Positions 2,732 to 22,648 of a stretch of DNA of 64,000 bases are shown here, in pieces (position 1 is the first letter of the stretch; every line of letters begins with the position of its first letter). This DNA comes from Spirulina subsalsa PCC 9445 (GTDB taxonomy: Bacteria > Cyanobacteriota > Cyanobacteriia > Cyanobacteriales > Spirulinaceae): NCBI RefSeq assembly GCF_000314005.1, contig NZ_JH980292.1, positions 2,948,779-3,012,778 of the forward strand, written 5' to 3'. The notes under the pieces were generated by a model. The model did no database searches, was not told the origin of the DNA, and saw only the letters and a list, made by a program, of their open reading frames with translations. Both the position numbers and the translations under genes were made by a program.

Positions 2732-5317
2732 TTACTCTTCTTCTAAGGCTTCGGGGTTCTCGGTTTCGCTTTCTCCACTGGTGGGAACAATGGCAATGGC
2801 GGCGATCGCATCATCTTCATCCAAACGCTGCAAACGAACCCCCGTCGCCATCCGAGACTGGGGAGAAATGGCACTCACGGCCTGGCGGACGATAATCCCC
2901 CGATTGGTGATTAACATTAACTCACTGTCCTGATAGACGATTTTTAAGCCCACTAACTCATCCTGTGGCATACGGAAACGAATCGAGCGCAAACCAATCC
3001 CCGCCCGTCGTTGTAAGCGGAATTGATGCACCGGAATCCGTTTCCCGAAACCCCGTCGCGTCACTACCAACACCCAAGGCCCCTCGGTGACTTCGGTGAT
3101 CACTTCCTCGCTCCCGTTGAGGTCTTCGCTAGTCTCCTCCTCCTCTTCGCTCTCACTATTGGCAATCTTCGCCGCAATTTGAGCCGGGAGAATGTCCATA
3201 CTAATCAACTGGTCATTATTGCGCAGTTTCATGGACTTAACGCCCCGCGTCGCTCGTCCGAGGGGGCGCAGTTGTTCGTCCCCCACTTTAAAATGAATGG
3301 CCATCCCCTGCTGAGATCCCACAATGACGCTATCTTCCGAGGTGGCCAAGCGCACCCAGCGCAGTTGGTCGCCTTCGGCCAGGGAAATGGCGATTAAACC
3401 ATTGGTGCGAATATTACTAAAGGCATCAAGGGGGGTTTTTTTGATGTAGCCTTTGCGGGTTAACATGACCAAAAACTGATCATCGGTAAACTCGCTCACG
3501 GCCACTAAAGAGGTGATCTTTTCATCCCGGGGGATGGGCAACATCTGGACAATCGGCACCCCTCGGGCGGTACGGGAGGCGGTGGGAATTTTGTAGGCAT
3601 TGAGACAGTAGACTAAACCGCGATCGCTAAAAAATAACACCTTGTCATGGTCACAACAGGTCAAGAAATGTTCTACCCCGTCATCCTCCTTAATTTTCGC
3701 CCCCGCCCGTCCCCGTGTGGCGCGGTTTTGGGCTTCAAAGGTAGAAACGGGCATCCGTTTAATATAGCCCTGTTCCGTTAACAGAATCATGGCCGGCTCA
3801 TTGGCAATTAAATCCCGCTCATCTAAATCCCCCTCTTGTAATAAAACCTCCGTCCGACGGGGGGACTCATGAATAGTTTTAATCTGGGTCGCCTCTTCGA
3901 TAATAATGGCGTTAATCCGTTCTTTCCGTGCCAGAATGTCCTCAAGGTCGGTGATTTGGGCTAATAGTTGTTCGTGTTCGGCGGTAATTTTTTCCGCTTC
4001 CAAGGCCGTTAAACGGCGTAACTGCATCTGTAAGATTGCATCCGCTTGGACTTCCGATAAACCAAAACCCTCGATTAACTCCTGTTTCGCGCTGGCTGTA
4101 TCGGCAGCCGCCCGGATGAGGCGAATCACCGCATCTAGATTTTCCAGGGCAATGAGTAACCCTTGTAAAATATGATCCCGTTCTTGGGCTTTGCGCAGTT
4201 CGTACTGGGTGCGTCGGGTAATGGCTTCCACGCGGAAATCGAGGAAGACCTCTAAAAAGCGTTTCAGGTCAAGGAGTTGGGGTTCTCCGTTCACGAGGGC
4301 TAACATATTGGCCCCGAAGTTGGTACGCAGGGGGGTTTGTTTGTAGAGATTATTTAACACCACCCTCGCCACCGCATCCCGCTTAAGTTCGATGACAATT
4401 CGCATTCCGTCGCGATCGCTTTCATCCCGGATATCTGCAATGCCATCAATGCGCTTATCATTGACCAACTCGGCAATTTTTTCAATCAGTGCCGCCTTAT
4501 TGGTCTGATAGGGTAACTCTGTAACAATAATCGCCTCTCGGTCAGGACGGCCGCGCTGTTCGATTAACTCAATCTGGGCTACCCCTTGCATCGTAATGGA
4601 GCCGCGTCCGGAAAAGTAAGCGTCCCGGATGCCCGAAGTCCCCAGAATCTGCCCCCCCGTTGGGAAATCAGGCGCCTTAACATGGTGCATTAATTCCGCA
4701 ATGCTAATTTCCGGGTTTTCGATTAAAGCAATCAAACCATCCACCAACTCCGCTAAATTGTGGGGGGGAATATTGGTCGCCATCCCTACGGCAATTCCCG
4801 AGGAACCATTTAATAACAGTTGGGGAATCCGCGAAGGCAAAACCACAGGTTCTTGTTGAGAACCGTCGAAATTATCGGCAAAATCAACAGTTTCCGACTC
4901 AATATCTCGCAGGAGTGCATTAACCGTCAGGCGATGTAAACGACACTCCGTATAACGCATGGCCGCCGGAGGATCATTGTCCACTGACCCGAAATTCCCA
5001 TGTCCATCAATCAAGGGATCTCGCATGGAGAAGTTCTGCGCCATGCGTACTAGGGCATCATAAACCGCCGTATCCCCGTGGGGGTGGTATTTCCCTAACA
5101 CCTCCCCCACCACCCGAGCGCATTTCCGAAACGGTCGATCTGGAGTTAACCCCAATTCATACATCGCGTAAAGAATGCGACGGTGAACGGGTTTGAGTCC
5201 GTCCCGCGCATCTGGCAACGCCCGTCCAACAATGACGCTCATGGCGTATTCCAGATATGACCGGGACATTTCGTTACTCAGGTCAGTAGGGACAATTCGC
5301 TCCTGCGAGGCAGTCAT
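2732..5317 (-). CDS. gyrA: DNA gyrase subunit A
   Basis: This 861-residue protein is full length for GyrA, the breakage-reunion subunit that with GyrB introduces negative supercoils. The winged-helix/tower region holds the catalytic tyrosine Y122 in RYTECRL and the quinolone-determining segment GDTAVYD with T83 and D87. The C-terminal beta-pinwheel has GyrA-box-like turns ([29 protein letters not shown]) and ends in an acidic tail ([11 protein letters not shown]). Another acidic insert, [18 protein letters not shown], lies around residue 720 between pinwheel blades. The ATG at 5315-5317 begins [13 protein letters not shown], as in other cyanobacteria. It is a single gene, divergent from the PhyH-type gene at 5855. 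ParC is an alternative name for close paralogues, but the GyrA boxes favour gyrA. Confidence 0.93.
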
Positions 5318-5854
5318 AAAATGAAAAACTCCATTAAATTGCTTATAAGGCAGATAAACAATAAAAAGCAGCCTAATTTGCCACTTTTTGCCTGAAGACC
5401 CGCCTAATTTTGCGTCTTGTGTTTAAATATTTTAACATGATTTCCCCCAGTTTGACGGGGTTAACCGCTTTTCGTCACCCGGATTTCAGGGGGCAATCGG
5501 AGCGGGAATTCTCAAGCTGAAGCGGCACCACAAGAGGACGTGATGGGGGACTATTAAATCAACATTAAGAAATGTTGCAAAACATGAGGATATAACGGAG
5601 ACTCTCGTATATTTGAGGATGAAACTTAATAGTTTTTACGGATTTTAGAGTCCAAGGGTGTTCGTTACAGTCTAAAAATCCTGATCCATATCGTGGGATT
5701 CACTAGGGTAGCATTTTCCTTTTAAGTATATTTACTCTGAGGTCTGTCAAATTTCGTCACGTTTTGCTAAAACTTTTTGCTGAAACTTTTTGCCAGCAAT
5801 AGGTTGCTCATTTGCGCTCCTATTTTTTGCTCAATTAAGGATTAAGTTAACTTC
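5318..5854. other. Divergent AT-rich promoter region between gyrA and the oxygenase gene
   Basis: No gene or known RNA is seen here. The gyrA side has AT-rich stretches near 5420-5440 that could hold its -10 box. Towards the 5855 gene there are three imperfect copies of a ~13-bp unit related to TTTTTGCTGAAAC at about 5762-5794, just before the coding start. An operator role for these copies is possible but untested. Confidence 0.4.
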
Positions 5855-6751
5855 ATGGTCAATTCTGCTCTCGCCCGCTTGCAAGGGCGTTCTAGTGCGG
5901 CGAAAAACCCTCTCAAGCGCTTGATGCACGGGGATATTACCCAACGTTTTGCTCGTTTTTCTTCAGTCCGCAAAACTTATAGCGTAATGCAATCAATCCG
6001 ACAATATTGTTCTGGGGAGTTATATCCGCCTGAATTAAACATTGCAGAGTGTTCTGTTTTTGACTGGTCTAGTTTGACCAAACATATGGAAAATATGCAC
6101 CGGGCGGGGGTTTCTTTGGGGCTACAATTGCCCAGCCAGATGGTGGAGGAAATTCAGGACTATGCTTTACATACCCCTTGCCGAGAACCTAATTATCACC
6201 GGGATTTTTATATTTCAGAAGTCCATAATGGTTACTTACCCGATGGTCATTCCGTCATCCGCGCTTTAGTAACAGATACCCCCAGCAAAACTTGTCCGGC
6301 TATTGCTCAACTGTTATCCGATCCCTTCCTGCTAACCATTGTTCGGAATTATCTCCACTACTACCCAACAGAAATTAGCTGGCATTTGACTTGGAGTATT
6401 GCCTCTCCTCTGCCTGATGAGGTGATTCGTCAACAGTATCCCCCGGCCAGTTTTCACTATGATATTGCCGGATATAATTTCATGACCGCTTACTTTTATA
6501 TCACCGATGTAGAGGCCGATTCTGGCCCCCATGTGATGATTCGAGACTCTCGCAGGGATAAACCCTTGAAAATGCTAATTTCTGGCGGTCGTCAAAGTGA
6601 TGAAGCGGTGTTAGGATATTATGGCAAGGACAAAGAAATGGTCATCACGGGTTCACGAGGATTCGGTTTTGTACAGGATCCCTCTTGTTTCCATAAAGTG
6701 AAACCTCCGAAGACTTCTCATCGTCTCTTGTTGCAAGTTCGCTATTCGTAG
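5855..6751 (+). CDS. PhyH-type 2-oxoglutarate/Fe(II) dioxygenase family protein
   Basis: The 298-residue protein shows the iron-binding triad of the phytanoyl-CoA dioxygenase superfamily: H201 and D203 in FHYDIAG, and the distal H280 in CFHKVKPP. An arginine that could hold 2-oxoglutarate follows (R290 in SHRLLLQVRYS). The stretch YNFMTAYFYITDVEADSGPH is the usual jelly-roll strand after the HxD pair. The N-terminal ~60 residues are basic and not recognised. The substrate is unknown; members act on lipids, amino acids, halogenated natural products and sugars. It stands alone, with no biosynthetic neighbours, so context does not help. Confidence 0.7.
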   Translation: MVNSALARLQGRSSAAKNPLKRLMHGDITQRFARFSSVRKTYSVMQSIRQYCSGELYPPELNIAECSVFDWSSLTKHMENMHRAGVSLGLQLPSQMVEEIQDYALHTPCREPNYHRDFYISEVHNGYLPDGHSVIRALVTDTPSKTCPAIAQLLSDPFLLTIVRNYLHYYPTEISWHLTWSIASPLPDEVIRQQYPPASFHYDIAGYNFMTAYFYITDVEADSGPHVMIRDSRRDKPLKMLISGGRQSDEAVLGYYGKDKEMVITGSRGFGFVQDPSCFHKVKPPKTSHRLLLQVRYS

Positions 6752-6922
6752 GGAACTCCTCTAGTGTTACGATTGAATCAATCAGGGTGTTCTCTCCTAG
6801 TCTTTTGATCCAGGGTGCATTTGCCTTTTCTCTGCTCTCCTTGCCTTGCCCTACAGTTGGCAACAAATGCTGTTAGAATTGGCCTGAAAAATTGTTACAA
6901 GATAATTGAGTGGGATTTTGCG

Positions 6923-7993
6923 CTAGGATAGCGTGATCCCGCGTTCTGCTAGAGTTTGTAAAAACCAATGGGTGGGAACAGCTTCCTCAACCGACCAAAC
7001 GCCGGGTTTTTGGAGTGTTCCGGTGAGAATTCCCTGGACAATGCCCCCGGTTCCCTGTCCAGCGATTTGGGCGGTGTTGGGATGGGAGAGTTGCGATCGC
7101 ACCCTACAAGGTTGATGATCCTTCCAGCCCTCCACTTCCACCTGAATAGCCACCCCCACCCCACTAAACCGATCGGTAAATTGGGTCATTTTGTAGGACA
7201 CTTGGGCTAAAAATTCGCTGCCGTTGATTAGCCAAGACTTGGGGAAAACATGGGCAGTCGTCCAAGTTAAATGATTATAAAAATCGGGGTAAGAGCCGAA
7301 CTTCGTAATCACATTTTGCACCGTCGGAAAGCTTTTCACTAAACTATGGGTTTCCGGCATATCGTACCAATACACACCGATAGAGCCACCGGGCGGGGGA
7401 AATGTGACCTTTTGGCGATCGCTATAAGGTTGAATCATTTGCCATTTTCCCCCTAACCACGCCTGAAACGGTTCTTTTAAGCCTAAAAACGTCGTGCGCA
7501 TCACCGTTAAGCCAGCCCCTCCGGAACCCCCCACCCCATAATAAAGACGGATGGTTTCCGCCCGGTCCAACTGTTCCACCCCATAGCGGACTAAACTGTT
7601 AGACATTCCCGGAAAAATACCCGTACTCACAATGGCCGTTACCCCCGCTTGTTCGGCCTTGGGGTGATAAGGTAGCAGTTTCTGAACAAAACCGTAGGAA
7701 TCGCTCACGTCCACATAATGCACCCCCTGCTCAACACAGTGTTTTAACACCGCTCCGGTGCGATGGTGAAAGGGGCCAGCACAGTGAACAACGAGGTGGT
7801 ATTGTCCTAGGATTTGGCGTAACTGTTCCTCCTCTTCTATCTCTAATGGTATAGCGGGATAGGGGCAGTCTTTGGGGGGATGGTGACGGTAGGTGAGGGT
7901 AATCTGTGCCTCGGTAAAACGGGCAACATCGGCGGCCACATTGCCCCCAATGCGACCACATCCCCCTAAAATTAGCACCTGGGAATTACTCAT
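6923..7993 (-). CDS. Saccharopine dehydrogenase-like NAD(P)-binding oxidoreductase
   Basis: The protein opens with a Rossmann fold (VLILGGCGRIGGNVAADVAR) and continues HLVVHCAGPFHHRTGAVLKHCVEQGVHYVDVSDS, the pattern of saccharopine-dehydrogenase-like reductases. The chosen ATG (7991-7993) overlaps the stop of the upstream lipoprotein gene by one base (TAATG), a common sign of translational coupling. An earlier start ten codons upstream (8023) would lie inside that gene and adds MADGVVWRRI before the fold, so it is less likely. Total length is about 356 residues. True saccharopine dehydrogenase activity is not implied; many members are uncharacterised enoyl- or polyketide-type reductases. The substrate is unknown. 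Confidence 0.7.
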   Translation of the reverse strand: MSNSQVLILGGCGRIGGNVAADVARFTEAQITLTYRHHPPKDCPYPAIPLEIEEEEQLRQILGQYHLVVHCAGPFHHRTGAVLKHCVEQGVHYVDVSDSYGFVQKLLPYHPKAEQAGVTAIVSTGIFPGMSNSLVRYGVEQLDRAETIRLYYGVGGSGGAGLTVMRTTFLGLKEPFQAWLGGKWQMIQPYSDRQKVTFPPPGGSIGVYWYDMPETHSLVKSFPTVQNVITKFGSYPDFYNHLTWTTAHVFPKSWLINGSEFLAQVSYKMTQFTDRFSGVGVAIQVEVEGWKDHQPCRVRSQLSHPNTAQIAGQGTGGIVQGILTGTLQKPGVWSVEEAVPTHWFLQTLAERGITLS

Positions 7994-8673
7994 TATTCTG
8001 CGCCATACCACTCCGTCAGCCATTGCCGCATTTGGCCAATTTCGGCCGCTTGAGAGTCAATAATCCCTTGAGCGAAAAGCTGCATCTCCGACCGTTCAGA
8101 CTTGGCTTTTAAGTCCTCTGCCATCATTAAAGCGCCTTCGTGGTGAGGAATCATGGCTTGGATAAAACGCTTCTCAAACTCCTCATCGGCTTCTCCTAAG
8201 TCCATCTCCATGCGCATTGCACTGATTCGAGCGGCAGACATGGGAATCATTTCATTGGTTTGTGCATCCCAAGCCATTGGCGTTTCCGGTGCGTCAGGAT
8301 ACCAAGTCTGTCGCCATTCCTGCATCTGGCCAATTTCTTGAGTTTGTGCCTCGATAATTTCTGTCGCTAAGGCCAATAATTCGGGCTTTTGGGATTTGGC
8401 TAAGACTTCTTGAGCCATCATCACCGCCCCTTCATGGTGGGGAATCATGGCATCAATAAAGCGTAGATCAAAAGCGTCATCGGCCGGACCGAGATCCATG
8501 CTCTCATGATCCATATGGCTATGATCTATTTGATTTGTCTCGCTGGGAGCTTCCATGGCGGTTTGTTCTTCTGAGGGGGCTTCCTCCATTGAGGTGGGAG
8601 CAGAACTACAAGCCCCGAGGAGTCCGGCGATCGCTAAAGAACTTAAAAGCAGACTGTTAATCCGAAAAACCAT
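7993..8673 (-). CDS. DUF305 lipoprotein with two DUF305 repeats
   Basis: A lipoprotein signal peptide ends in the lipobox LLGAC (C22), followed by a Thr/Glu/Met/His-rich linker (DHSHMDHESMD). Two copies of the DUF305 four-helix unit follow, each with the family signature: DAMIPHHEGAVMMAQEVL around residues 74-91 and QAMIPHHEGALMMAEDL around 170-186. The His-His-Glu and Met residues suggest metal binding, and DUF305 genes often neighbour copper-handling genes, but no such gene is adjacent here. The protein should sit on the periplasmic face of a membrane. Its stop overlaps the start of the next gene by one base, so the two are probably co-transcribed. Confidence 0.85.
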   Translation of the reverse strand: MVFRINSLLLSSLAIAGLLGACSSAPTSMEEAPSEEQTAMEAPSETNQIDHSHMDHESMDLGPADDAFDLRFIDAMIPHHEGAVMMAQEVLAKSQKPELLALATEIIEAQTQEIGQMQEWRQTWYPDAPETPMAWDAQTNEMIPMSAARISAMRMEMDLGEADEEFEKRFIQAMIPHHEGALMMAEDLKAKSERSEMQLFAQGIIDSQAAEIGQMRQWLTEWYGAE

Positions 8674-8754
8674 ACTTTCTCTCTGAATTCAACACTAAGC
8701 TCATCCTAGAGTCTCCCCCTTACAGGAGGGTCAAGGTTATGTCGAGAATCGGGG

Positions 8755-8839
8755 ATCAGGGGAGAGGGAAAGACGAGGAATTAAGACTTATTACCCATTA
8801 CCTATTACCTATTCCCTGTTCCCCGTTCCCTGTTCCCTA
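8755..8839. repeat. STRR block ending at a TAG stop codon
   Basis: A G-rich part is followed by GAATTAAGACTTATTAC, TACCTATTACC and CCCTGTT units. The block touches the 3' end of the UPF0016 gene: on the minus strand its stop codon TAG (8837-8839) is the first three bases of TAGGGAACAGGG. The same GAATTAAGACTTATTAC core recurs at ~47330 (inverted) and ~56456. Confidence 0.7.
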
Positions 8840-9262
8840 AAGTTGTACAACATCACTCAGCAGTAAAACCGAGACGACTAAGAGAATAGTAGCGGCCGCT
8901 AAGTCCATTGTTTTGGGGGAAACGCGCTTGGCTAACCACCACCCCAAGAGACAACCGATTAAACTGGTGGCAATGAGTGCGATCGCTGCTCCCCCGAACA
9001 CAATCCAAGGGGCTTGAGATTCCGCACTCATCAACAAAGTAGCCAACTGGGTTTTATCCCCCATCTCAGCCAACAGAATCGTGATAAATGTGGCGTTAAA
9101 CGTTGCCCAGAAGCCCATAGAACGCCTTGTAATGGGTTTTAGGTCATTTTGATTCAAATTAGCTTTTTCTCGGCTAATGAGCGCCTCTGGATGCTTCTCT
9201 GTTAAAGGTTCAGTCGCAGTCACAATTGTCTTTGTCCTATCAGGGTTTGATGGTGATTTCAT
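8837..9262 (-). CDS. UPF0016/GDT1-family transporter, single-domain form
   Basis: The protein carries one UPF0016 signature, LLAEMGDKTQLATLLM, in its first membrane helix, then two more helices (around IVFGGAAIALIATSLIGCLLGWW and AAATILLVVSVLLLSDVV). UPF0016 proteins move Mn2+ or Ca2+; in cyanobacteria a two-domain member, Mnx, handles manganese. This one has half the usual domain content, so it must pair with itself or with another half-size protein, and no second copy is seen nearby. A ~45-residue polar extension precedes the first helix. ATG 9260-9262 is chosen over an upstream TTG. The stop codon lies at the edge of an STRR block. Confidence 0.8.
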   Translation of the reverse strand: MKSPSNPDRTKTIVTATEPLTEKHPEALISREKANLNQNDLKPITRRSMGFWATFNATFITILLAEMGDKTQLATLLMSAESQAPWIVFGGAAIALIATSLIGCLLGWWLAKRVSPKTMDLAAATILLVVSVLLLSDVVQL

Positions 9263-9926: not shown

Positions 9927-11033
9927 TTAGATTGTGACAGGGGATTCAATGTAGACCGTAGGATCTTGGGTGACGAACTCTAAACCATACCCAGCTAACT
10001 GTTTAGAAATATTTTCATTAGCTAGTTCAAGTAGACGCTTGCGTAATTGAATAGAATCTTCATTAGACCCGAGAATAAAAAAGGTCACTCTGGCACGAGT
10101 TCCGGGTTTTCCCTCAACTGAAACCAGACTAATTTTTGTACTACCGGGATCAATCCCTGTGATGCTATCTGTAGCCGCCTTAATAATTTGTTCTACCATA
10201 GCCTGTTCTTGCTCTTTTAGGAAGCGTAAAAAGTCCAAATAGAGCAAAACCATCACCTTTTTCCCCCTTGTGATATTTTCAATCTCCCAGTCCGCCAGTT
10301 TAGAATTGGGAATAATCATCAGGGTACTTTTCGCGGCCGTGCGGATTTTCGTGGATCTCAGACCAATAGACTCCACCCGGCCATAAATCCCATTAGGAAG
10401 GCGAATATATTCCCCGCGACTAAAAGGACGATCCAGATAAATCACCACGGTTCCGATCATTTGGGATAATGCGTTATTGGCCGCCAAACCAATGGCCCCA
10501 GCAATAAACCCCAAACTGGCCAGCAGTCCAAATAAATCAATGTTGCGAGTGCGTGCAAAGGCGATCGCGGCAAAAACCCCAATTAAAATATTCACCACCA
10601 GTTCAAAAGGTAACACCAACTCATCCGCCTCTAACCCCACACGCTGCATAAAACTAATCCCATATCCCCGCATCAATTGACGAAATAACCGCGACAGTAA
10701 CCACGCCACACTGATAGTAACCGCCAACTCCAGAAAGGGGAGAATAAAATTATAAACCGGGCGATATTCTTCCAACCAAACGAGGGAAAGATTGATTAAA
10801 ATTAAAGCCGTTGCCGTTTTTAATTCTCCCTGCAACGGTTGAGTCAGTGTCTCATAAATTTCTCGTCCCTGTTTCGGCAAAAAACGATAAAAAACAAGCC
10901 GCAACAGTTTAGGTCCAATATTCCCTAAGAGGATAGAGAGAAAAGCAAAAACGAGAAAGATCAAATAACTCGGTATATCTGATCCTTCCAGGTTGGGGAT
11001 AAAGTTAACGAAAAAATTGTAAATTTCACTCAT
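9927..11033 (-). CDS. MscS-family mechanosensitive channel (downstream copy)
   Basis: This 368-residue membrane protein has about four predicted helices. They are followed by the conserved MscS pore and beta domain: LGFIAGAIGLAANNALSQMIGTVVIYLDRPFSRGEYIRLPNGIYGRVESIGLRSTKIRT and LMIIPNSKLADWEIENIT. Such channels open under membrane tension and release solutes on osmotic downshock. It starts 5 bases after the stop of a close paralogue (11039-12136), with the same ending motif (..I(T/D)SP(V/I)TI). The pair looks like a tandem duplication read as one transcript, possibly giving mixed oligomers. Confidence 0.88.
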   Translation of the reverse strand: MSEIYNFFVNFIPNLEGSDIPSYLIFLVFAFLSILLGNIGPKLLRLVFYRFLPKQGREIYETLTQPLQGELKTATALILINLSLVWLEEYRPVYNFILPFLELAVTISVAWLLSRLFRQLMRGYGISFMQRVGLEADELVLPFELVVNILIGVFAAIAFARTRNIDLFGLLASLGFIAGAIGLAANNALSQMIGTVVIYLDRPFSRGEYIRLPNGIYGRVESIGLRSTKIRTAAKSTLMIIPNSKLADWEIENITRGKKVMVLLYLDFLRFLKEQEQAMVEQIIKAATDSITGIDPGSTKISLVSVEGKPGTRARVTFFILGSNEDSIQLRKRLLELANENISKQLAGYGLEFVTQDPTVYIESPVTI

Positions 11034-11038
11034 GACCT

Positions 11039-12136
11039 CTAGATTGTAATCGGTGAATCAACATTAATCGTGCGTTCTTCTAAGGCAAAGCCAATGCCGT
11101 ATTCTTTTAATTGTTTGGCGATATTTTGATTCGCAATATCCAGTAACTGGCGACGTAAATCCATTGAAACCTCCCCAGACCCTAAAATGAAGAAACTAAT
11201 CTGAGCTTGAGTAATCGCAACTTCTCCCTCTTGATAGGTATCGCTAAAATCAACCCCGGTACTACGGGGGTCAATACCAAAAATATCCCGGGTACTTTCG
11301 ACAATAATTTGTCGAATAAAAGCCTTTTCTGCTGATTCAATTTTGCGGTCAAAAGTAAGATAGAGTAACGAAATGACTTTTTTCGCCCCGGTAAAATTTT
11401 CAATACTCACCTGGGTTAACTGACTATTCGGGACAACGACTAAAGTTCCTTTACCAGAGGTACGGATTCGAGTGGAGCGTAATCCGATAGATTCTACCCG
11501 TCCAAAAATACCATCAGGTAAACCAATATAATCGTCAACAACAAAGGGACGATCTAAAAAAATTACAATTCCTCCTAATAATTGTTCGAGGGTTTTCTGC
11601 GCAGCAAAAGCAACAGCTAATCCCCCAACACCTAAACTTGCTAAAAGTCCTAAAATATTTAACTCGTGGGTTTGAGAAAAAATAATAGTAATGACAAAAA
11701 AAACTAAGCCATTAGCGGATATTTTGGCTAATATCAATAACTCACTATTAATTTTTCTCCGATTTTGAATCGCAATATCCAGCAAATAAATATCAAAAAA
11801 TCTGCCAAAAATACGAGATACTAGCCACCCCATAATCAAGGCAGTGATTAACCCCAAGAAGGTTTCTCCATAATCCCAGATAGGTTTAAGGGGGAGGGTT
11901 AATAAAATAATATCACTGGCGAGCAGGAAGAAAATGATCAAAAGGATATTTTGATCAGGAGCAACAATTTGTTGATAGGTGGTTTTCCATTGGGGGGAAA
12001 AAAGGTTTCTCAGTTGTTTGTTGATGCTATTGGCAATCAACAGGAGAACGAATAAGAGTAAAAGGGCAGCGAGGGCGAGTAAAGTGTAACTGATCAGGGA
12101 GCTACTCAGGGTAATTTCTGGTATTTTTTCTAACAT
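11039..12136 (-). CDS. MscS-family mechanosensitive channel (upstream copy)
   Basis: This 365-residue paralogue of the next gene has the MscS motifs LGLLASLGVGGLAVAFAAQKTLEQLLGGIVIFLDRPFVVDDYIGLPDGIFGRVESIGLRST and LVVVPNSQLTQVSIENFT. Its pore helix (GVGGLAVAFAAQ) is closer to the canonical MscS TM3 than that of the second copy (GAIGLAANNA), so gating or conductance may differ. The reading frame contains more A/T than its neighbour. The 5' side carries the 61-bp tandem repeats. Confidence 0.88.
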   Translation of the reverse strand: MLEKIPEITLSSSLISYTLLALAALLLLFVLLLIANSINKQLRNLFSPQWKTTYQQIVAPDQNILLIIFFLLASDIILLTLPLKPIWDYGETFLGLITALIMGWLVSRIFGRFFDIYLLDIAIQNRRKINSELLILAKISANGLVFFVITIIFSQTHELNILGLLASLGVGGLAVAFAAQKTLEQLLGGIVIFLDRPFVVDDYIGLPDGIFGRVESIGLRSTRIRTSGKGTLVVVPNSQLTQVSIENFTGAKKVISLLYLTFDRKIESAEKAFIRQIIVESTRDIFGIDPRSTGVDFSDTYQEGEVAITQAQISFFILGSGEVSMDLRRQLLDIANQNIAKQLKEYGIGFALEERTINVDSPITI

Positions 12137-14413: not shown

Positions 14414-15469
14414 ATGGCTCGGATTAGGAGGCAGGAAAAGCGGTTATGGCAGGAATTGTTAGGCGGAATCCTCGGGCTGGGGGGGGTTTTCTGTTTAGGG
14501 ATCTTTTGGTACTGGTATGTTGAGGGCTGGTCTTTAACGGAAGCGGCCTATATGACGATGATTACCTTGGCTACGGTGGGGTTTTCGGAGGTTCGACCCT
14601 TAGATGATCGCTCTCGTCTGTTTACGATGGTATTAATTCTATTGGGGATTATCTCCATTGGTTATATTGTTAACCGCTTTACGGAAGCCATTATCCAAGG
14701 CTATTTTCAAGAAAGAATTCGCGAGAGGCAGAAGAGACGCTTGATTGAGAGTTTCCAAGATCATTATATTATCTGTGGCTATGGGCGGATGGGTCATCAA
14801 GTTGCCCTGGAGTTTGCGGCGGAAAAAATTCCTTTTGTGATTGTAGATAGTGACCCAGAGTCGGTATCGGAAGCCCAACATGATGGTCACATGGCGGTAC
14901 AAGGGGATGCGACGCTGGATGATTGTTTGCTGGATGTGCGCATTGATCGGGCGGCTTGTTTGGTGGCGGCTTTGCCTTCGGATGCGGAAAATCTCTATAC
15001 GGTGCTGTCGGCTAAAACGTTGAATCCTCAACTGCGCACGATTGCCCGGGCGAATAATCAGGAGGCGGTTCTGAAGTTGAAGCGGGCGGGGGCGGATGCG
15101 GTGGTGTCGCCCTATATTACGGGGGGGCGACGGCTGGCGGCGGCGGCGTTACGGCCTCGGGTGATGGATTTTGTGGATGGGATTATTACGGGGGTTAATC
15201 GTTCGTTATATCTCGATGAGTTTTTGTTATCTTCTAATTCGGGGGGCTGTGTGGGGCAAACCCTGAGTGATACCAATTTACGGGCTTTGTCGGGGGCGTT
15301 GGTTTTGGCGATTCGGCGGGAGGATGGAACGTTAATCGGGGGGCCGACGGGGGACACGCGCTTGATGGAGGGGGATTTATTGATTTGTATGGGGACGGCG
15401 GAACAGTTGCGGACGTTGCGGCACTTGTTGGGGGGGACTCGTCCTTCTGGTCGGTGGTCTAAGGCTTGA
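14414..15469 (+). CDS. Two-TM potassium channel with RCK (TrkA-N/TrkA-C) domains
   Basis: A helix (residues ~16-35), a pore loop with filter TLATVGFSE, and a second helix (LFTMVLILLGIISIGYIVN) form a 2TM channel unit. A cytoplasmic RCK domain follows: Rossmann motif HYIICGYGRMGHQVALEF, then VQGDATLDD, then a TrkA-C part (VGQTLSDTNLRALSGALVLAIRREDG). This is the MthK/GsuK layout, where the RCK ring gates the pore on ligand binding. The filter has TVGFSE instead of the usual TVGYGD, seen in some prokaryotic channels. Its last 11 bases overlap the convergent gene at 15459. Confidence 0.85.
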   Translation: MARIRRQEKRLWQELLGGILGLGGVFCLGIFWYWYVEGWSLTEAAYMTMITLATVGFSEVRPLDDRSRLFTMVLILLGIISIGYIVNRFTEAIIQGYFQERIRERQKRRLIESFQDHYIICGYGRMGHQVALEFAAEKIPFVIVDSDPESVSEAQHDGHMAVQGDATLDDCLLDVRIDRAACLVAALPSDAENLYTVLSAKTLNPQLRTIARANNQEAVLKLKRAGADAVVSPYITGGRRLAAAALRPRVMDFVDGIITGVNRSLYLDEFLLSSNSGGCVGQTLSDTNLRALSGALVLAIRREDGTLIGGPTGDTRLMEGDLLICMGTAEQLRTLRHLLGGTRPSGRWSKA

Positions 15470-18400
15470 GGATTTGGGTGAAACTTAATAGGAGACGGGG
15501 ACAGGTGTTAATGGCCTGCTCGAATTTTTGCCGGGAGAGGAAGAGGACGGTGCAGGGGGTGGTGGCGATTGCTGCGCAACGCTGCGCGGATGCAAATTGT
15601 CGAGGAATGCCTGCTTTTTGGGGGGCGGGACTGTCATCAAACAGACTCATCTCACAAAAGGTTTGCCCCGGTGTAATCACCCTTTCTAGCACCCCAAACC
15701 CTTCTCCAACCCGCATTTCCACCCGCCCTGATTCTACGAGATATAGGCCGGGTTTGGAACTGTGGGAGGTGTAAATAATGCTGCTGGGGGTGTAACTTTT
15801 TTGATCCAAAATGGGGTTAATGGCGAGGAGTTCCTCTAAAAAGAGGTGGCGGAAAAAGGGGGTTTCTTTGAGGAAGAAGATTTGATGCAGAAACCAGTCA
15901 TTCTCTGGCAGGTTTTCTTGATAGCCCAAGGTTAGGGAGTGGGCTAAACGCTGAATCAGAGGATCTGGGTCGGTGAGGTATGATGTGGGGAGCAGGTGAC
16001 GGTATTGGGGCAGGTCTTGGGAGATGACAAATAAACCCCCAACCCGAATCCAACGATCCCGAGTGTCTAAGACCTCTTTCAGTAGGATTTCGGGTTCTAG
16101 TAAACGGTCGGAACGGGAGGGGAGATGATTTTCCAACAGGGGGACGAGGGGCAGGACAAAACGACGGTGTTTGAGGGAGAGTAGGGTTTCGACGGCATTG
16201 GCGCGTAAACGGGGGTCGGGGCTGTGGAGAATTTGCCGAATATCCCGCAGGGTACCTTCTCGATCTAAACAGGAGAGGAGGTATAAAACCCGGTGGAGGA
16301 GTCGTTGTTGATAGTCTTGAAGGATGACGGCTAATTGTTCCCACATGGGGGCATCTAGGGGCATTTGGGCTAACCAGCGCTCGGTTTGTTGTAGCAGTTG
16401 GTAGCGGGGTTTAAAGGACTGATAGAGGAGGTGGGTGGCTTGGGGGGTGCGTACTTTGGCGACACTGGCGATCGCGGCTTCTCGCACTTCGGGACGGGTG
16501 GCGTTTAGGTAAATATTGGCTACTTTTAACCCATCATTGCCATAACTGGCTAAGGCACTGGCCGCCCACATTCGCACATTTAAATCCTCGTTGTTGAGTC
16601 CGGTGGCAATGGCCAGGAGTAAATCGGGATGACGGATGATGCCGAGGAGTTTTAGTGCGATCGCCCGCACCAAACTATCAGACTCCGCCAAATAGGATTC
16701 CGCCCACTTCCCTAATGCCAAATCCCCCGGCCGCGCCAAGGTTGTTAAGGCTTCTAAACCCTGTCTAGTAATCTCTGTGGGGGTATCGGCTAATAACGTT
16801 TGCAGCAGGGGGACAAATTGGCGGTTCCCGGTTCGGCGAATAGTACGGATAATGGTCTGTTGGGTCGCGGTTTCTAAGGGAGAGAGCCACATTTCCTGAC
16901 AGATTTGTTGCAATTGGGCATCCCCACGCCCCACCGACGCAACACACACCAAGGCGCGGATTTGGGGGTTCACGGTGTCTAGCAATTGCTCTAATTCCGA
17001 CCGAGAAAAGGGATACTGACTGGCAATCAGGGCTTCTAGGGCTAAAAGGCACAAGTCGGGTTTTTCCCCCCTCAGCAAGGCCTGCACATACTGCACTATG
17101 TCCGGGCGGCGACTCTGACTTAAATAGGTTACTAGGACTTGACGGATTCTCTCATCTGTGGTATGCAGGAGGGGTTCAACGAGGGGCAGAAACTGCTGGC
17201 TGGCTTCAGCCCAGGTTGCCAATTCTAAGCCCAAAATCTGATCACTGCGTTCTTGACTCCTTAAGAGGTTTTGAATTTCTTCCCGGTAGGAACCAGGTAA
17301 ACGCAGGCCTTCCTGCACATCTTTGACCTTGACGACTCCAGTTCTTAACATGGTGAGTAAGGATTGCAGGTAACTTTTGCCCATGTGATAACGCAGGACA
17401 AAAAACGCTCCACTTAACACTAATCCCCCATAGCCCACCTGTAAGGGGGTTAAAAACAGTTGGGACAGTTGCAATAAAACCCCGGCCGTCGCTAATCCCA
17501 AGGCGAAAAATAACCCATTGCCAATCACTCGCACTCGCCCCACCAAAGCATAAGGCACCGCATTATAATTCAGGGACTGGATGGGTTGATTTAAACTGTC
17601 TTCAATGCCGTTAGTGTTTAAATTGGCAAAGACGGCCGTTCCTAAATTCCCTTGCCAGACTAATCCTCCAAAACTGGCTAAGGTGGTGAGGGGGTAAATT
17701 AAACTAATCCCTGTGACCCCTAATAGGCGAATTAAGGGCTTCGTCACGAGGGCTAATAACACCAAGGGTAAAACACTATTCACCACCCGCACTATGCCTA
17801 AAAAACGGGTTAAATCTTGGTCATCGGCAAAGGTTTGAGAGTAGATGCTGTAATACTCAAATTCAGCCAAACTGTAGAGCAAAATGAATAAAAAGGTACT
17901 ACTACAGAGAAAGGAAATAATCGGATATTGACGCAAGAGGTCGGGCAACTGGTTTAAACTCTTGAGTAGGGATTCTGGGGACTGAAGGTGGCAGACTTCG
18001 AGGGGGGTTTCTGTTTTCTCTAGATAGAACAGTTGACCGATCATGATCCCGTAACAGAGGGGTAGGTAGAGTAACACATCTTGGGGGGATACCCATGAGA
18101 CTAACCCACTGAGTAGGGCCCCGCCCAATAAACCGCCCACCGCGTTGGCCATGCGCAAAATGGGGGTGTAGCGCTTCCAGTCCAAACTGGTGAAATAATC
18201 GGAGACTAAACTGGGGAATAAAACCTCGGTCATGAGAATCCACTGCACATACAGCCCAATGTGGATGAGGTAATAAATGGGCAAAGTGTCCAGAGGCAGG
18301 AGAAACCAAGCGAGGAGACTAAAGGCAATAGCTACCCCTAATAATAGACGGCAGAGTTTGGGGCGGCTGGTGGTATCGACAATTTGGGAGAGTCCCCCGT

Positions 18401-18593
18401 AGATGGGGATGGACAGGATTCCCATGAGGACATAGGACAGGGGCAAATAGGCAGCCCCGGCACGATGGAGAAAGAGGGAAGTCCCCAAAGTTAAGGCAAT
18501 AACGCCAAAGGTGGTGCTTGAAACGGCTAAGAACAACAGGTGAAGGAGGCCCCGTTGTTGAATCGTCGCTCGCTCAAAACTGGGTTGAATCAT
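15459..18593 (-). CDS. MFS/NTT-like membrane protein fused to HEAT repeats and a cyclic-nucleotide-binding domain
   Basis: The 1044-residue protein has three parts. Residues ~15-405 form a polytopic membrane domain of about 12 helices resembling MFS or ATP/ADP-translocase-like carriers. Residues ~430-880 are a helical HEAT-like solenoid (for example EALTTLARPG, WAASALASYGNDG, VREAAIASVAKVRT). Residues ~915-1044 form a CNBD-like beta roll (GLYLVESGRVEMRV, ITPGQTFCEMSLFDD, QRCAAIATTPC), keeping the Glu and Arg that hold the cyclic phosphate. No substrate can be named. The start overlaps the 3' end of panD by 20 bp, so the two are co-transcribed and probably translationally coupled. Its 3' end overlaps the convergent channel gene by 11 bp. 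Confidence 0.75.
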   Translation of the reverse strand: MIQPSFERATIQQRGLLHLLFLAVSSTTFGVIALTLGTSLFLHRAGAAYLPLSYVLMGILSIPIYGGLSQIVDTTSRPKLCRLLLGVAIAFSLLAWFLLPLDTLPIYYLIHIGLYVQWILMTEVLFPSLVSDYFTSLDWKRYTPILRMANAVGGLLGGALLSGLVSWVSPQDVLLYLPLCYGIMIGQLFYLEKTETPLEVCHLQSPESLLKSLNQLPDLLRQYPIISFLCSSTFLFILLYSLAEFEYYSIYSQTFADDQDLTRFLGIVRVVNSVLPLVLLALVTKPLIRLLGVTGISLIYPLTTLASFGGLVWQGNLGTAVFANLNTNGIEDSLNQPIQSLNYNAVPYALVGRVRVIGNGLFFALGLATAGVLLQLSQLFLTPLQVGYGGLVLSGAFFVLRYHMGKSYLQSLLTMLRTGVVKVKDVQEGLRLPGSYREEIQNLLRSQERSDQILGLELATWAEASQQFLPLVEPLLHTTDERIRQVLVTYLSQSRRPDIVQYVQALLRGEKPDLCLLALEALIASQYPFSRSELEQLLDTVNPQIRALVCVASVGRGDAQLQQICQEMWLSPLETATQQTIIRTIRRTGNRQFVPLLQTLLADTPTEITRQGLEALTTLARPGDLALGKWAESYLAESDSLVRAIALKLLGIIRHPDLLLAIATGLNNEDLNVRMWAASALASYGNDGLKVANIYLNATRPEVREAAIASVAKVRTPQATHLLYQSFKPRYQLLQQTERWLAQMPLDAPMWEQLAVILQDYQQRLLHRVLYLLSCLDREGTLRDIRQILHSPDPRLRANAVETLLSLKHRRFVLPLVPLLENHLPSRSDRLLEPEILLKEVLDTRDRWIRVGGLFVISQDLPQYRHLLPTSYLTDPDPLIQRLAHSLTLGYQENLPENDWFLHQIFFLKETPFFRHLFLEELLAINPILDQKSYTPSSIIYTSHSSKPGLYLVESGRVEMRVGEGFGVLERVITPGQTFCEMSLFDDSPAPQKAGIPRQFASAQRCAAIATTPCTVLFLSRQKFEQAINTCPRLLLSFTQILKP

Positions 18594-19164
18594 AGGGAGG
18601 TGGCGGGTCTAGAAAAGAAAAATTCGGGGAGGGTGGGGATTCTATCCCTCGATCTAACATTTCGTCGGGGTCGTTGTCGATGGGTGGACGAGGGGGAGGA
18701 GGGGGGAGGGTTTCAATGTCGGTGGGAATGGCGGCTTTGAGAACCGATTCACTCTGAAAATCCAGCCTTTCCTGCTCAAAATTGGGGATGACTTGCTGGA
18801 CTAATAATTCTTCACATTGGTTTTGAGCGTTGGCAATTAATACGGTGGCTTGATGGCCGGTTTTGATGACTTCGGCGCGATCGCGCTGGGCAAAGGCCAC
18901 AATAATCACCCGATCTCCCACGGAACACAAATGACTGGCGGCTCCGTTAATCTCGATACACCCGGATTCAGCTTCCCCCGGCAAGACATAGGTGCTAAAA
19001 CGATGACCATTTTGGGAATTATAAATCTGAACCTCTTCTAGGGGGAAAATTCCCACCTGTTCCATTAAACGCCGATCAATGGTAACACTCCCCATATATT
19101 CAGGATTGGCGCGAGTAATCCGCACTTGATGGAGTTTGGCGTGCATTAAACGAATGGTCGTCAT
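18574..19164 (-). CDS. panD: Aspartate 1-decarboxylase with long proline-rich tail
   Basis: PanD makes beta-alanine for pantothenate. The self-cleavage site is G25-S26 in EYMGSVTID, which produces the pyruvoyl cofactor. The rest of the core matches the family: MHAKLHQVRIT, EEVQIYNSQNGHRFSTYVL, GCIEINGAASHLCSVGDRVIIVAFA. The core ends near residue 125, but the frame runs to 196 residues with an acidic, proline-rich tail (TLPPPPPRPPIDNDPDE, FLDPPPPYDSTQF). The ATG at 19162-19164 is chosen because a strong ribosome site (GGGAGG) precedes it by 6 bases; a longer frame to 19209 lacks support. The last 20 bases overlap the transporter fusion gene. Confidence 0.9.
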   Translation of the reverse strand: MTTIRLMHAKLHQVRITRANPEYMGSVTIDRRLMEQVGIFPLEEVQIYNSQNGHRFSTYVLPGEAESGCIEINGAASHLCSVGDRVIIVAFAQRDRAEVIKTGHQATVLIANAQNQCEELLVQQVIPNFEQERLDFQSESVLKAAIPTDIETLPPPPPRPPIDNDPDEMLDRGIESPPSPNFSFLDPPPPYDSTQF

Positions 19165-19237
19165 AGAAAACCTCCCAGAAATCCGTGATAATAAATCATT
19201 AATCCTCAATTTCTCCTAGCCCTCATTCCATTGCCCT

Positions 19238-20170
19238 ATGTTCCCCATTATTTATTCTGAACGCTTTCTTGACCATGATACGGGGTCTTTTCACCCGGAA
19301 CGTCCTGCCCGCTTAACGGCTATTGTAGAAGCTTTAAAAGCGGCTTCTTTTGCCCATCAGTTAACGTGGTATCAACCGACTCCCTTAAATGAACGGAATG
19401 TTCTCCCTTGGGTGCAACAAGTCCATACTCCAGATTATCTTGAAGAGGTGCAGGCGATCGCAGGCCGACGGGGAGGGGGGATTTTAGATCCCGATACTCC
19501 GGTTTCTCAGGGGAGTTATGAGATCGCCCTTTTAGCGGTCAGTGGGTGGTTAGATGGGGTGGATCTCGTCTTAGCGCACAATCGCCCGGCCTTTGTTGTA
19601 GCACGTCCTCCGGGTCATCATGCCGAACCGGAGCGCGGGATGGGGTTTTGTTTGCTCTCCAATGCGGCGATCGCGGCTCATTATGCTCTAGAACAGCCCA
19701 ACATTCAACGGGTGGCTATTTTTGATTGGGATGTTCACCACGGCAACGGCACCCAATACGCCATAGAAACGGATCCCCACATTGCCTATTGTTCCCTGCA
19801 TCAGTCTCCGTTTTACCCCGGCACGGGACAAGCCTATGAGCGAGGAATGTATAAAAATGTCTTAAATTTGCCCTTGCGCGCTGGCTCCACGGTGACTGAC
19901 TATGAGGGGGTGATTAAGCAGCAAGTCATCCCGTTTTTCCAACATTTTCAACCGGATTTAATTCTAGTCAGTGCGGGGTATGATGCCAATGCAGATGATC
20001 CTCTGGCGGGGATGAAGTTACAACCGGAGGATTATGGTCAGTTTACCCGCTTATTACTTCCCCTGACCCCTCGTCTCTTATTTGGTTTAGAAGGGGGCTA
20101 TGATCTAGAGAGTTTAGGTCAGTCTGTGGTGGAAACCGTCGGCAGTTGTCTGTCCCTAGGGTATGAATAA
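19238..20170 (+). CDS. Histone-deacetylase-family amidohydrolase
   Basis: The 310-residue single-domain protein has the class II HDAC-like zinc site: PPGHHAEPERGMGFCLLSNAA (general-base histidines), FDWDVHHGNGTQ (zinc Asp and His), SAGYDANADDPLAG (second zinc Asp and loop) and LEGGYD. Bacterial members remove acetyl groups from polyamines or other small amides, or from lysines; which applies here is not visible. It is divergent from panD, with the two starts 73 bp apart. Confidence 0.88.
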   Translation: MFPIIYSERFLDHDTGSFHPERPARLTAIVEALKAASFAHQLTWYQPTPLNERNVLPWVQQVHTPDYLEEVQAIAGRRGGGILDPDTPVSQGSYEIALLAVSGWLDGVDLVLAHNRPAFVVARPPGHHAEPERGMGFCLLSNAAIAAHYALEQPNIQRVAIFDWDVHHGNGTQYAIETDPHIAYCSLHQSPFYPGTGQAYERGMYKNVLNLPLRAGSTVTDYEGVIKQQVIPFFQHFQPDLILVSAGYDANADDPLAGMKLQPEDYGQFTRLLLPLTPRLLFGLEGGYDLESLGQSVVETVGSCLSLGYE

Positions 20171-20670: not shown

Positions 20671-22545
20671 TTAAGAAACCATTGCTCCTCGTCCTAATAA
20701 CCAATAGGTTTTCATGTTCCCTTTCCCCTTCACAACAATAGAACCGCGTTCCTCTAAAATGAACTGGTCTTTCAAGCGCTCATAAGTAACAGCAGTCACC
20801 TGAATTTTACCCGGTTCTCCCAAAGATTCCATCCGCGAAGCCACATTAACCGCATCCCCCCACAAATCATAACTAAACTTACGAATTCCAATCACCCCCG
20901 CTACCACAGATCCCGTATTAATGCCGATGCGCAATTGGAAAGGTTTTCCATCCTTTCGCTTAAACTTAGCAATTTCCTGCTGCATATCTAACGCCATTTC
21001 TGCCATAGCCTCTGTATGATCCTGACAAGGAGTTGGTAATCCACCCACCACCATATAAGCATCACCAATGGTCTTAATTTTTTCCAGATGATACCGTTCA
21101 GCTAGATGATCAAAACGGGAGAAAATTTGATTGAGAACACTAACCAACTCAATAGGAGGCGTTTGAGCAGAAAAAGGAGTAAATCCGACAATATCAGCAA
21201 AAAGAATCGTTACTTCTGCAAATTGTTCAGCTAAAGATCCCTCAAATTGTTTAAGTCGAGTGGCAATTTTCTGAGGTAATATATTGAGTAATAATCGTTC
21301 TGATTTTTCCTGTTCCAAGCGCAAAGCTTCTTCAGTTTTCTTTCGTGCGGTTAAGTCAGTCCCCACGGAGAGAATCTGAAAATATTCCCCCTGACTATTC
21401 ACCAAGGGTTTATGAGTCCAAGATAGCCAAACACGCTCCCCATTTTTACAAATACTTTCATTTTCATGGGATTTATAAGATTCAGGATTTTGACAAATAT
21501 CGGTGATCAGTGCCGCTAAATCTTCGCCTGAACTGCCTTGAGAAGGGACAATACTCCCCACAACAGGACGACCTAAAATTTCCTGTTCTGTATAACCAAA
21601 AAAATTCTGACCGTATTCATTTAAAAAGCGAATATATCCGTTTTTATCCCAACGTAAAATAATACAATTAGCCGTTTGCACTAAATCCCGATATTGAATT
21701 TCACTGGCTCGTAATGCCACTTCTGCCTGTTGACGATCGGTAATATCCCGCGCTACCCAAATCACCCCATGATCTGGCATTGGGGAGATAGTTGCAGAAA
21801 ACCAATAAATTTTGTCTTCACAGGTTAATTCATAATCAAGGGTAATACTTTCTTGGGTTTCACAGACTCGGGTGAGTTGTTCTGTCCAAAGTTGACTATA
21901 TTCATCTTCGCGTAAAAACTGCATAATTGTTTCATCAATTAACAGGGTTTGCTCTAAATTGTGGGTAGCATGGGTGGGGATCACTTCCACTCCGGCAATC
22001 TTGCTCTCTTCTAAAGTTAAAATAATGACAATATCCGTCATAGCGTTAAAGATTGCCCGCATTTTTCCTTCTGAAGTCAGCAATTTGTTTTCTAGGAGTC
22101 GCCGCTCTTGAATTTCTTGTTGAAATTTTTCATTCTGTTCTTGTAAAGTTTGCTGTAAAAACCGTAACGTTAAATGGGTTTCAATGCGAGCTAAAACTTC
22201 TTCAGCTTGGAACGGTTTTGTGATATAATCAACCCCACCCGCTTGGAAGGCTTGAACTTTATTGTTGACCTCATCTAAGGCACTAATAAAAATAATGGGA
22301 ATGTCTTTAGTCCGGTCTTGTTGTTTCAGATGTTTGCAGACTTGATAACCATTCATCTGGGGCATATTAACATCGAGTAGAATCAAATCTGGGGGCATGG
22401 CGGCGGCTGAACGGATGGCCATAGCCCCACTTAATGCTGTCCGCACTGCATACCCTTTATCTAACAACAACTGAGAAAGTAGCCGCAAATTATCGGGTGT
22501 GTCGTCCACTATAAAAATACTGGGATGCACCGGAAAAACTGTCAT
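20671..22545 (-). CDS. Adenylate cyclase with receiver and PAS domains
   Basis: Domain order from the N-terminus: a REC domain (FIVDDTPDN; phospho-acceptor D58 in LILLDVNMP; Lys in YITKPF), a short coiled coil, two PAS domains (the second near YRDLVQTANCIILRWDKNG, with a PAC tail), a signalling helix, and a class III cyclase domain at the C-terminus. The cyclase has both metal aspartates (ILFADIVGFTPFS and KTIGDAYM), the ATP-selecting Lys (IKTIGD) and Asp (SYDLWGDAVNVASRM), so adenylate rather than guanylate cyclase is likely. The ATG at 22543-22545 is preferred over a TTG four codons upstream. It is likely cytoplasmic and phosphorylated by a histidine kinase; the hybrid kinase gene lies just upstream. 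Confidence 0.88.
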   Translation of the reverse strand: MTVFPVHPSIFIVDDTPDNLRLLSQLLLDKGYAVRTALSGAMAIRSAAAMPPDLILLDVNMPQMNGYQVCKHLKQQDRTKDIPIIFISALDEVNNKVQAFQAGGVDYITKPFQAEEVLARIETHLTLRFLQQTLQEQNEKFQQEIQERRLLENKLLTSEGKMRAIFNAMTDIVIILTLEESKIAGVEVIPTHATHNLEQTLLIDETIMQFLREDEYSQLWTEQLTRVCETQESITLDYELTCEDKIYWFSATISPMPDHGVIWVARDITDRQQAEVALRASEIQYRDLVQTANCIILRWDKNGYIRFLNEYGQNFFGYTEQEILGRPVVGSIVPSQGSSGEDLAALITDICQNPESYKSHENESICKNGERVWLSWTHKPLVNSQGEYFQILSVGTDLTARKKTEEALRLEQEKSERLLLNILPQKIATRLKQFEGSLAEQFAEVTILFADIVGFTPFSAQTPPIELVSVLNQIFSRFDHLAERYHLEKIKTIGDAYMVVGGLPTPCQDHTEAMAEMALDMQQEIAKFKRKDGKPFQLRIGINTGSVVAGVIGIRKFSYDLWGDAVNVASRMESLGEPGKIQVTAVTYERLKDQFILEERGSIVVKGKGNMKTYWLLGRGAMVS

Positions 22546-22648
22546 AAGGGTAGGCAAACCTAGGAGTAGACAAAAGGAACAGATTTAGCAAAAATCTAGC
22601 GAAACAAGACAGGATTCCAGAAGGCTAAACTTTATAAAGCATGGTGTA

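Follow-up and report, generated by a model that had tools for sequence, protein, structure and literature searches.

The window analysed here is a stretch of 64,000 nucleotides from the cyanobacterium Spirulina subsalsa PCC 9445 (genome size 5.32 Mb), and the gene at issue lies on its minus strand at 15459..18593. This open reading frame starts with ATG and its translation of 1044 residues combines an NTT-type carrier, a solenoid of HEAT repeats, and a cyclic-nucleotide-binding domain (CNBD) in one chain. A first-pass annotation of the DNA had proposed such a chain, and the minus-strand reading frame, the Pfam matches, and an AlphaFold2 model all bear it out; structure prediction and family searches for each domain, which it had suggested as a check, return an NTT-type carrier, a HEAT solenoid, and a CNBD fold. 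The carrier domain (residues 1–418; 17340..18593) belongs to the MFS type, has 12 helices, and is assigned by profile comparison (hhalign) and by its fold match to AtNTT1. The solenoid (residues 434–889; 15927..17294) matches PF13646 (HEAT_2; 2.1e-23) and PF02985 (1.7e-5), both over cut-off, and appears in the model as helical hairpins. The CNBD (residues 900–1044; 15462..15896) matches PF00027 (cNMP_binding; 3.9e-10, with 40.0 bits where the cut-off is 27.5), and contains a degenerate phosphate-binding cassette with an insertion (residues 979–1004; 15582..15659), placed by alignments and modelled with low confidence. The model of the whole protein, built on an alignment of 44 sequences, reaches a mean predicted local distance difference test (pLDDT) score of 84.8 and shows 12 long helices at residues 6 to 418, a helical-repeat solenoid at 434–889, and a beta-roll CNBD at 900–1044.

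Fusions of an NTT with HEAT repeats and a cNBD have been described from cyanobacteria, other bacteria, and oomycetes by Major, Embley and Williams (2017; PMC5381601). In the portions of that paper used here, NTT-HEAT proteins are reported to be monophyletic with two cyanobacterial clades, the cyanobacterial three-domain form is confined to sections I–III, and a two-gene arrangement, with the cNBD encoded separately behind an NTT-HEAT gene, is described as well; its authors suggest that cyclic AMP (cAMP), bound by the cNBD, could tune the uptake of ATP, and they state that no cyanobacterial fusion had been functionally characterised. The existence of the fusions is restated in a 2019 review (PMC6995639, consulted in part), which was the only later paper on them found in a literature search that was thin on subscription journals. 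The annotation's remark that no characterised protein has this exact order thus stands as regards characterisation; the order itself, however, has been on record since 2017. The window protein agrees with these fusions in its three domains, their order, and its cyanobacterial host: its carrier is homologous to NTTs, its HEAT repeats lie C-terminal of the carrier, and its cNBD forms the C terminus of the chain, so that it is almost certainly a member of the published family. What is new here is the divergence of the carrier together with its residue pattern, the loss of the cassette arginine across a whole clade, a patchy adjacency to panD, and the standing of a neighbouring cyclase as one of 29 in the genome.

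Full-length homologues carrying all three domains are widespread among cyanobacteria, which excludes a chance origin of the domain order. The family was analysed as 53 rows, comprising the window protein and 52 named loci (L083–L086 were left out), with 12 homologues aligned to the window protein over their full length, 44 rows in the full-length model alignment, and 29 in a CNBD alignment. HEAT matches lie C-terminal to the carrier domain in all 13 aligned members. The nearest named relative, Spirulina subsalsa FACHB-351 (locus L031), shares 92% identity across the fusion protein.

The carrier is the least recognisable of the three parts. No Pfam model matched residues 1–430 at a trustworthy E-value, and the one PF03219 (TLC) match over cut-off in the window's own genome belongs to another NTT-HEAT gene, not to the fusion. 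Profile comparison reaches further: the N-terminal profile of the window family aligned with the NTT-HEAT family over 380 columns (Prob 98.6, E 8.1e-16; the NTT-HEAT sets were not trimmed to start codons, and some rows carry upstream residues), whereas a control family of ordinary MFS proteins encoded by neighbouring genes gave Prob 0.4. Searched against the PDB, the NTT-HEAT profile for its part retrieves AtNTT1 (3.8e-11) and Chlamydia pneumoniae NTT1 (1e-5). The modelled carrier fold is likewise closest to AtNTT1 (9j3m; Z 39.1, root-mean-square deviation (rmsd) 2.6, 405 residues aligned), followed by C. pneumoniae NTT1 (Z 33.3) and, as the best match outside the NTTs, LacY (Z 31.0). Profile comparison and fold therefore identify a carrier domain that is of the NTT type but divergent, homologous to NTTs and yet too distant for PF03219.

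Four charged residues of AtNTT1, K155, E245, E385, and K527, are reported to be functionally important (PMC10654386, seen in part), with a K155E variant binding neither ADP nor ATP and a K527E variant failing to bind ATP (PMC3306366, likewise in part). In the structures, chain positions 161, 301, and 443 correspond to E245, E385, and K527 at a single offset of 84 (our arithmetic). The equivalent of E385 is E244 of the window protein and is present in 53 of 53 rows. At position 54, the equivalent of K155, 32 rows have phenylalanine and 20 tyrosine, with one gap, and neither a conserved lysine in the K527 region (T369 and its neighbours) nor a conserved acid in the E245 region was found among the 53 rows; slightly beyond the latter, position 123 is asparagine in 31 rows, glutamate in ten, and aspartate in nine. 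Lysine or arginine occupies at least 90% of rows at positions 15, 140, 353, 355, 401, and 406 within residues 1–430 (the window protein itself has glycine at 15). The sole near-invariant lysine in this region, K140, aligns with neither K155 nor K527. Of the charge quartet found in ATP/ADP-exchanging carriers of the AtNTT1 type, the fusion family thus keeps just the E385 equivalent. AtNTT1 and C. pneumoniae NTT1 (PDB 9j3j, 9j3l–9j3o) have the carrier fold and this glutamate in common with the window protein. Their chains are 586–610 residues long, however, and their ADP/ATP-binding lysines are not conserved in the window's family. Both are presumably without HEAT repeats or a CNBD.

At the other end of the chain, PF00027 is matched in all 13 aligned members (E up to 10), and the model has the CNBD fold. 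A search with this domain's separate model places many CNBDs, some bound to cyclic nucleotides and some ligand-free, within one or two Z units of each other, and since bound and free forms nearly tie, the fold is uninformative as to ligand. In canonical CNBDs the consensus of the cassette is FGE(L/I)AL...PR(A/T)A. The window protein has FCEMSLFDDSPAPQ here and then an insertion, which in the sister species is seven residues shorter; the glutamate is kept (E981, in FCEMSL), whereas the glycine has become cysteine and the arginine alanine. In both models few regions have lower confidence than this loop, with pLDDT below 50 at residues 988–1003 in the full model and 991–1000 in that of the CNBD alone.

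In a tree of 48 family rows (a quick method, with support from the Shimodaira–Hasegawa-like approximate likelihood-ratio test; L044, L051, L052, L074, and L075 omitted and L057 shortened), the window protein falls inside a clade of 13 rows with support of 94, to which the partial row L052, absent from the tree, was added because it closely resembles L037. The cassette arginine is found in none of these 14 rows, and the glutamate in nine. Outside the clade the cassette is readable in 35 of 39 rows (those of L044, L051, L074, and L075 are the unreadable four of the 53), with arginine in 23, glutamate in 30, and both in 23, and the 23 arginine-bearing rows lie on one side of a branch that separates them from the labelled rest. 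Loss of this arginine and a carrier unrecognised by PF03219 thus distinguish the window's clade from the family described by Major et al. As a separate observation, the fusion homologue frame at 5911–8928 of locus L075 (Adonisia turfae CCMR0081) has no recognisable CNBD cassette, possibly through recent CNBD loss or a frameshift.

The window's own genome also encodes the same three modules in adjacent genes, an arrangement of the class described by Major et al. A second NTT-HEAT gene (locus L089, 5579–8611, minus strand; C2:1886000-1899500) encodes 1010 residues; behind it lies a distinct gene for a CNBD of 154 residues (4991–5455, minus strand). This pair is unlike the fusion in two respects: its NTT part matches PF03219 (6.6e-8), and the cassette of the separate CNBD, FGEMALFDAEPRSASV, is canonical. 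As the cassette arginine is lost in the window's clade and the same genome has this separate CNBD with an intact cassette, canonical control of the window protein by cAMP or cyclic GMP (cGMP), which the first-pass annotation had put forward, is doubtful and finds no support for this clade. The window protein is not classed here with sequences that match PF03219, with ATP/ADP exchangers, or with canonical cyclic-nucleotide receptors.

A further known parallel in layout is the sea urchin sperm Na+/H+ exchanger SLC9C1, which also has a carrier and a C-terminal CNBD in one chain; its carrier, however, has a different fold, with a voltage sensor. This protein heads the whole-protein Foldseek list by E-value (1.2e-6, with an overall TM-score of 0.11), and its CNBD alone matches the CNBD model with Z 14.3. 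Unlike in the window protein, cAMP acts through the cassette arginine of SLC9C1, where a change from arginine to glutamine abolished the cAMP effect (PMC10049371, citing its ref. 19; source seen in part).

The fusion gene is preceded on the same strand by panD, which encodes aspartate 1-decarboxylase (18574..19209, minus strand; PF02261 5.9e-41, TIGR00223 over cut-off) with a proline-rich C-terminal extension. The two genes overlap by 20 bp (18574–18593), as the annotation had stated; the overlap lies at the start of the fusion and recurs in S. subsalsa FACHB-351, where panD is again upstream. In the Spirulina genus panD is probably co-transcribed with the fusion. Within the flanks of the 52 named loci (up to 6 kb, some ended by contig ends), panD lies near the fusion in four: L031, with the upstream overlap just described, and L039, L040, and L041, where it is downstream on the same strand at distances of about 250–270 bp (L039 and L040) and 33 bp (L041). 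The hosts with panD directly 3′ of the fusion are Planktothricoides and S06.Bin197. Of 50 genomes that carry the fusion, 24 gave no panD match; in the 26 with panD, the two genes are adjacent three times, namely in the window genome, in that of its congener, and in G018 (the assembly from which L041 comes). A class sample of 388 genomes contains the fusion in 40, panD in 118, and both in 22; adjacency is seen in two of these 22, against about 0.01 pairs expected by chance if some 4,500 genes per genome are assumed. In a panD tree restricted to fusion-bearing genomes (23 rows), the linked panD genes and one unlinked gene (L153) form a clade (99/98); however, close panD relatives (52%–61% identity) were seen in genomes that gave no fusion match as well, and this type of panD is therefore not tied to the fusion.

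The pairing with panD is thus local and not a rule, although its recurrence in three lineages, on either side of the fusion, exceeds chance. As a conserved general partner panD was rejected (adjacent in two of the 22 class-sample genomes with both genes, four of the 52 loci, and three of the 26 fusion genomes that have panD), so that the proposed coupling to beta-alanine synthesis fails as a general statement even though the arrangement recurs. Similarly, conservation of the overlap in relatives extends to the congener, with adjacency in three lineages, and most loci are without it. No mention of panD occurs in the consulted parts of PMC5381601. The proline-rich extension of the window PanD (about 75 residues; 18574–18800) is longer than in the fusion-adjacent panD genes of L039 and L041.

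Viewed as a whole, the evidence makes it reasonably probable that the window gene encodes a divergent NTT-HEAT-cNBD protein, namely a secondary carrier whose HEAT-CNBD arm lies in the cytosol and whose CNBD, within the window's clade, is non-canonical. Under this reading the N-terminal domain with its 12 helices would serve as a secondary carrier in a cell membrane and, the number of carrier helices being even, both the HEAT solenoid and the CNBD fold would lie on the cytosolic side. The solenoid may be an arm that docks a partner or transmits force, relaying conformational change, and the CNBD is most likely a structural or protein-contact module or a binder of a non-canonical ligand, rather than a canonical receptor for cAMP or cGMP. 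Classical ATP/ADP exchange seems unlikely for the carrier on account of its residues, as the lysines that bind ADP and ATP are not conserved and a single carrier glutamate, E244, is kept. Several points weigh against this reading, the first being that PF03219 (cut-off 21 bits) matched none of the 13 aligned fusion members up to E 10. The direct profile match of the window family to NTT1 is modest (E 6.9e-5, Prob 63, 242 columns), and weak against C. pneumoniae NTT1 alone (Prob 8, E 0.0043); for this reason the equivalences of K155 and K527 were drawn through the NTT-HEAT family and its alignment with the PDB chains, and transport by the family is itself a prediction from homology. As for the CNBD, the best match of its separate model is a cAMP-bound protein of the CRP type, GlxR (3r6s, chain F; Z 16.0, rmsd 1.9, 125 residues aligned), and the glutamate that binds ribose is retained. 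Nor does loss of the arginine prove loss of binding, since a mammalian PKA-R mutated at the cassette arginine was still activated by cAMP, with potency about 5-fold lower (PMC6440977, in the part seen).

The same observations bear on four other explanations. Were the protein a nucleotide carrier gated by cAMP or cGMP, its CNBD would bind cAMP from class III cyclases and adjust ATP/ADP transport of the NTT type; this is close to what Major et al. suggested (PMC5381601, in part), and the genome has 29 matches to the class III cyclase domain, the CNBD fold and the cassette glutamate are present, and both cassette residues persist in the majority of readable rows outside the window's clade. The absence of arginine from all 14 clade rows, the cysteine and the insertion in the window cassette, the SLC9C1 mutant, and the missing ATP/ADP lysines make it unlikely nonetheless. 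It is less likely again that the fusion acts together with panD as one metabolic unit in which the carrier moves beta-alanine, pantothenate, or a coenzyme A (CoA)-related compound: the overlap in the window's genus, the same-strand downstream panD in Planktothricoides and S06.Bin197, and the excess of adjacent pairs over chance speak for such a unit, against which stand the many fusion-bearing genomes without a panD match, the rarity of adjacency where both genes occur, and the close panD relatives in genomes that have no fusion match. A nucleoside-binding CNBD of the kind in trypanosome PKA-R, making the protein a nucleoside sensor that governs an NTT-derived carrier, is very unlikely; loss of the cassette arginine is part of the trypanosome pattern (PMC10959531, seen in part), and Foldseek matched the CNBD model to trypanosome PKA-R chains, among others, but according to the same source the switch also requires the fifth residue of the cassette to be glutamate (A202 to E); the window protein has serine there, and none of the 14 clade rows has glutamate. 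Least probable of all is that, in one cyanobacterial clade, an NTT carrier has become a transporter of beta-alanine, pantothenate, or a CoA-related compound, or a membrane sensor of one of these, controlled by a bound partner protein or by a ligand that is not a cyclic nucleotide, a reading for which the loss of the carrier lysines, the loss of the CNBD arginine, and the position beside panD, taken up at least twice and on opposite sides, may be cited. With NTT fusions widespread in free-living cyanobacteria, the split between clades that kept and lost the arginine, and the intact separate CNBD in the same genome, offer a natural experiment on cAMP gating of carriers, and domain names alone call for caution before ATP transport or cAMP control is assumed.

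Upstream of panD, a histone-deacetylase-family gene on the plus strand (19238..20170; PF00850 5.6e-80) is followed by a minus-strand gene for a response regulator-PAS-PAS-class III nucleotide cyclase (20671..22557; PF00211 2.3e-69, PF00072 7e-31). The cyclase lies 2.1 kb from the start of the fusion, and the annotation was right about its position; as evidence of partnership, however, this proximity is weak, because PF00211 has 29 matches across the 5.32-Mb genome and the gene on the opposite strand intervenes. By our arithmetic, a gene of 3 kb has a chance of roughly 5% of lying about 2 kb or less from one such match, and the cyclase was not retained as a specific partner. Scans for CRP-like sites gave 13 matches in the window against 20.6 expected by chance, and scans for promoters and terminators around the fusion gene were near chance.

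The most frequent neighbour found is a same-strand MFS gene directly upstream of the fusion, present in 14 of the 52 loci (L042, L045, L047–L050, L054–L056, L059, L064, L068, L071, and L074), with a frame that runs into the fusion start codon in six. The fusion tree includes 13 of the 14, and none of them falls within the window's clade. For two upstream MFS proteins that were tested, the best NCBIfam match was a model of a sucrose/proton symporter, well under cut-off.

On the other side of the fusion, a plus-strand gene (14414..15469) encodes a two-helix K+ channel with TrkA-N/TrkA-C (RCK) domains; it is convergent with the fusion, the 3′ ends overlapping by 11 bp, and the same convergent layout recurs in L031. 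Further along, on the minus strand (9927–12136), two tandem genes resembling mechanosensitive channels, similar in length and sequence, lie 5 bp apart; the second, on which alone Pfam was run, matches PF00924 (2.6e-17). Elsewhere in the genome, the frame upstream of the L089 NTT-HEAT gene resembles, by eye, translation initiation factor IF-3. A plus-strand gene in L090 (2735–4075; C2:3605500-3612500) encodes a carrier of 446 residues that has neither HEAT repeats nor a CNBD, is 25% identical to the window protein (E 1.2e-12), and matches no Pfam or NCBIfam model; a gene that matches Cache and HAMP weakly follows it after 13 bp.

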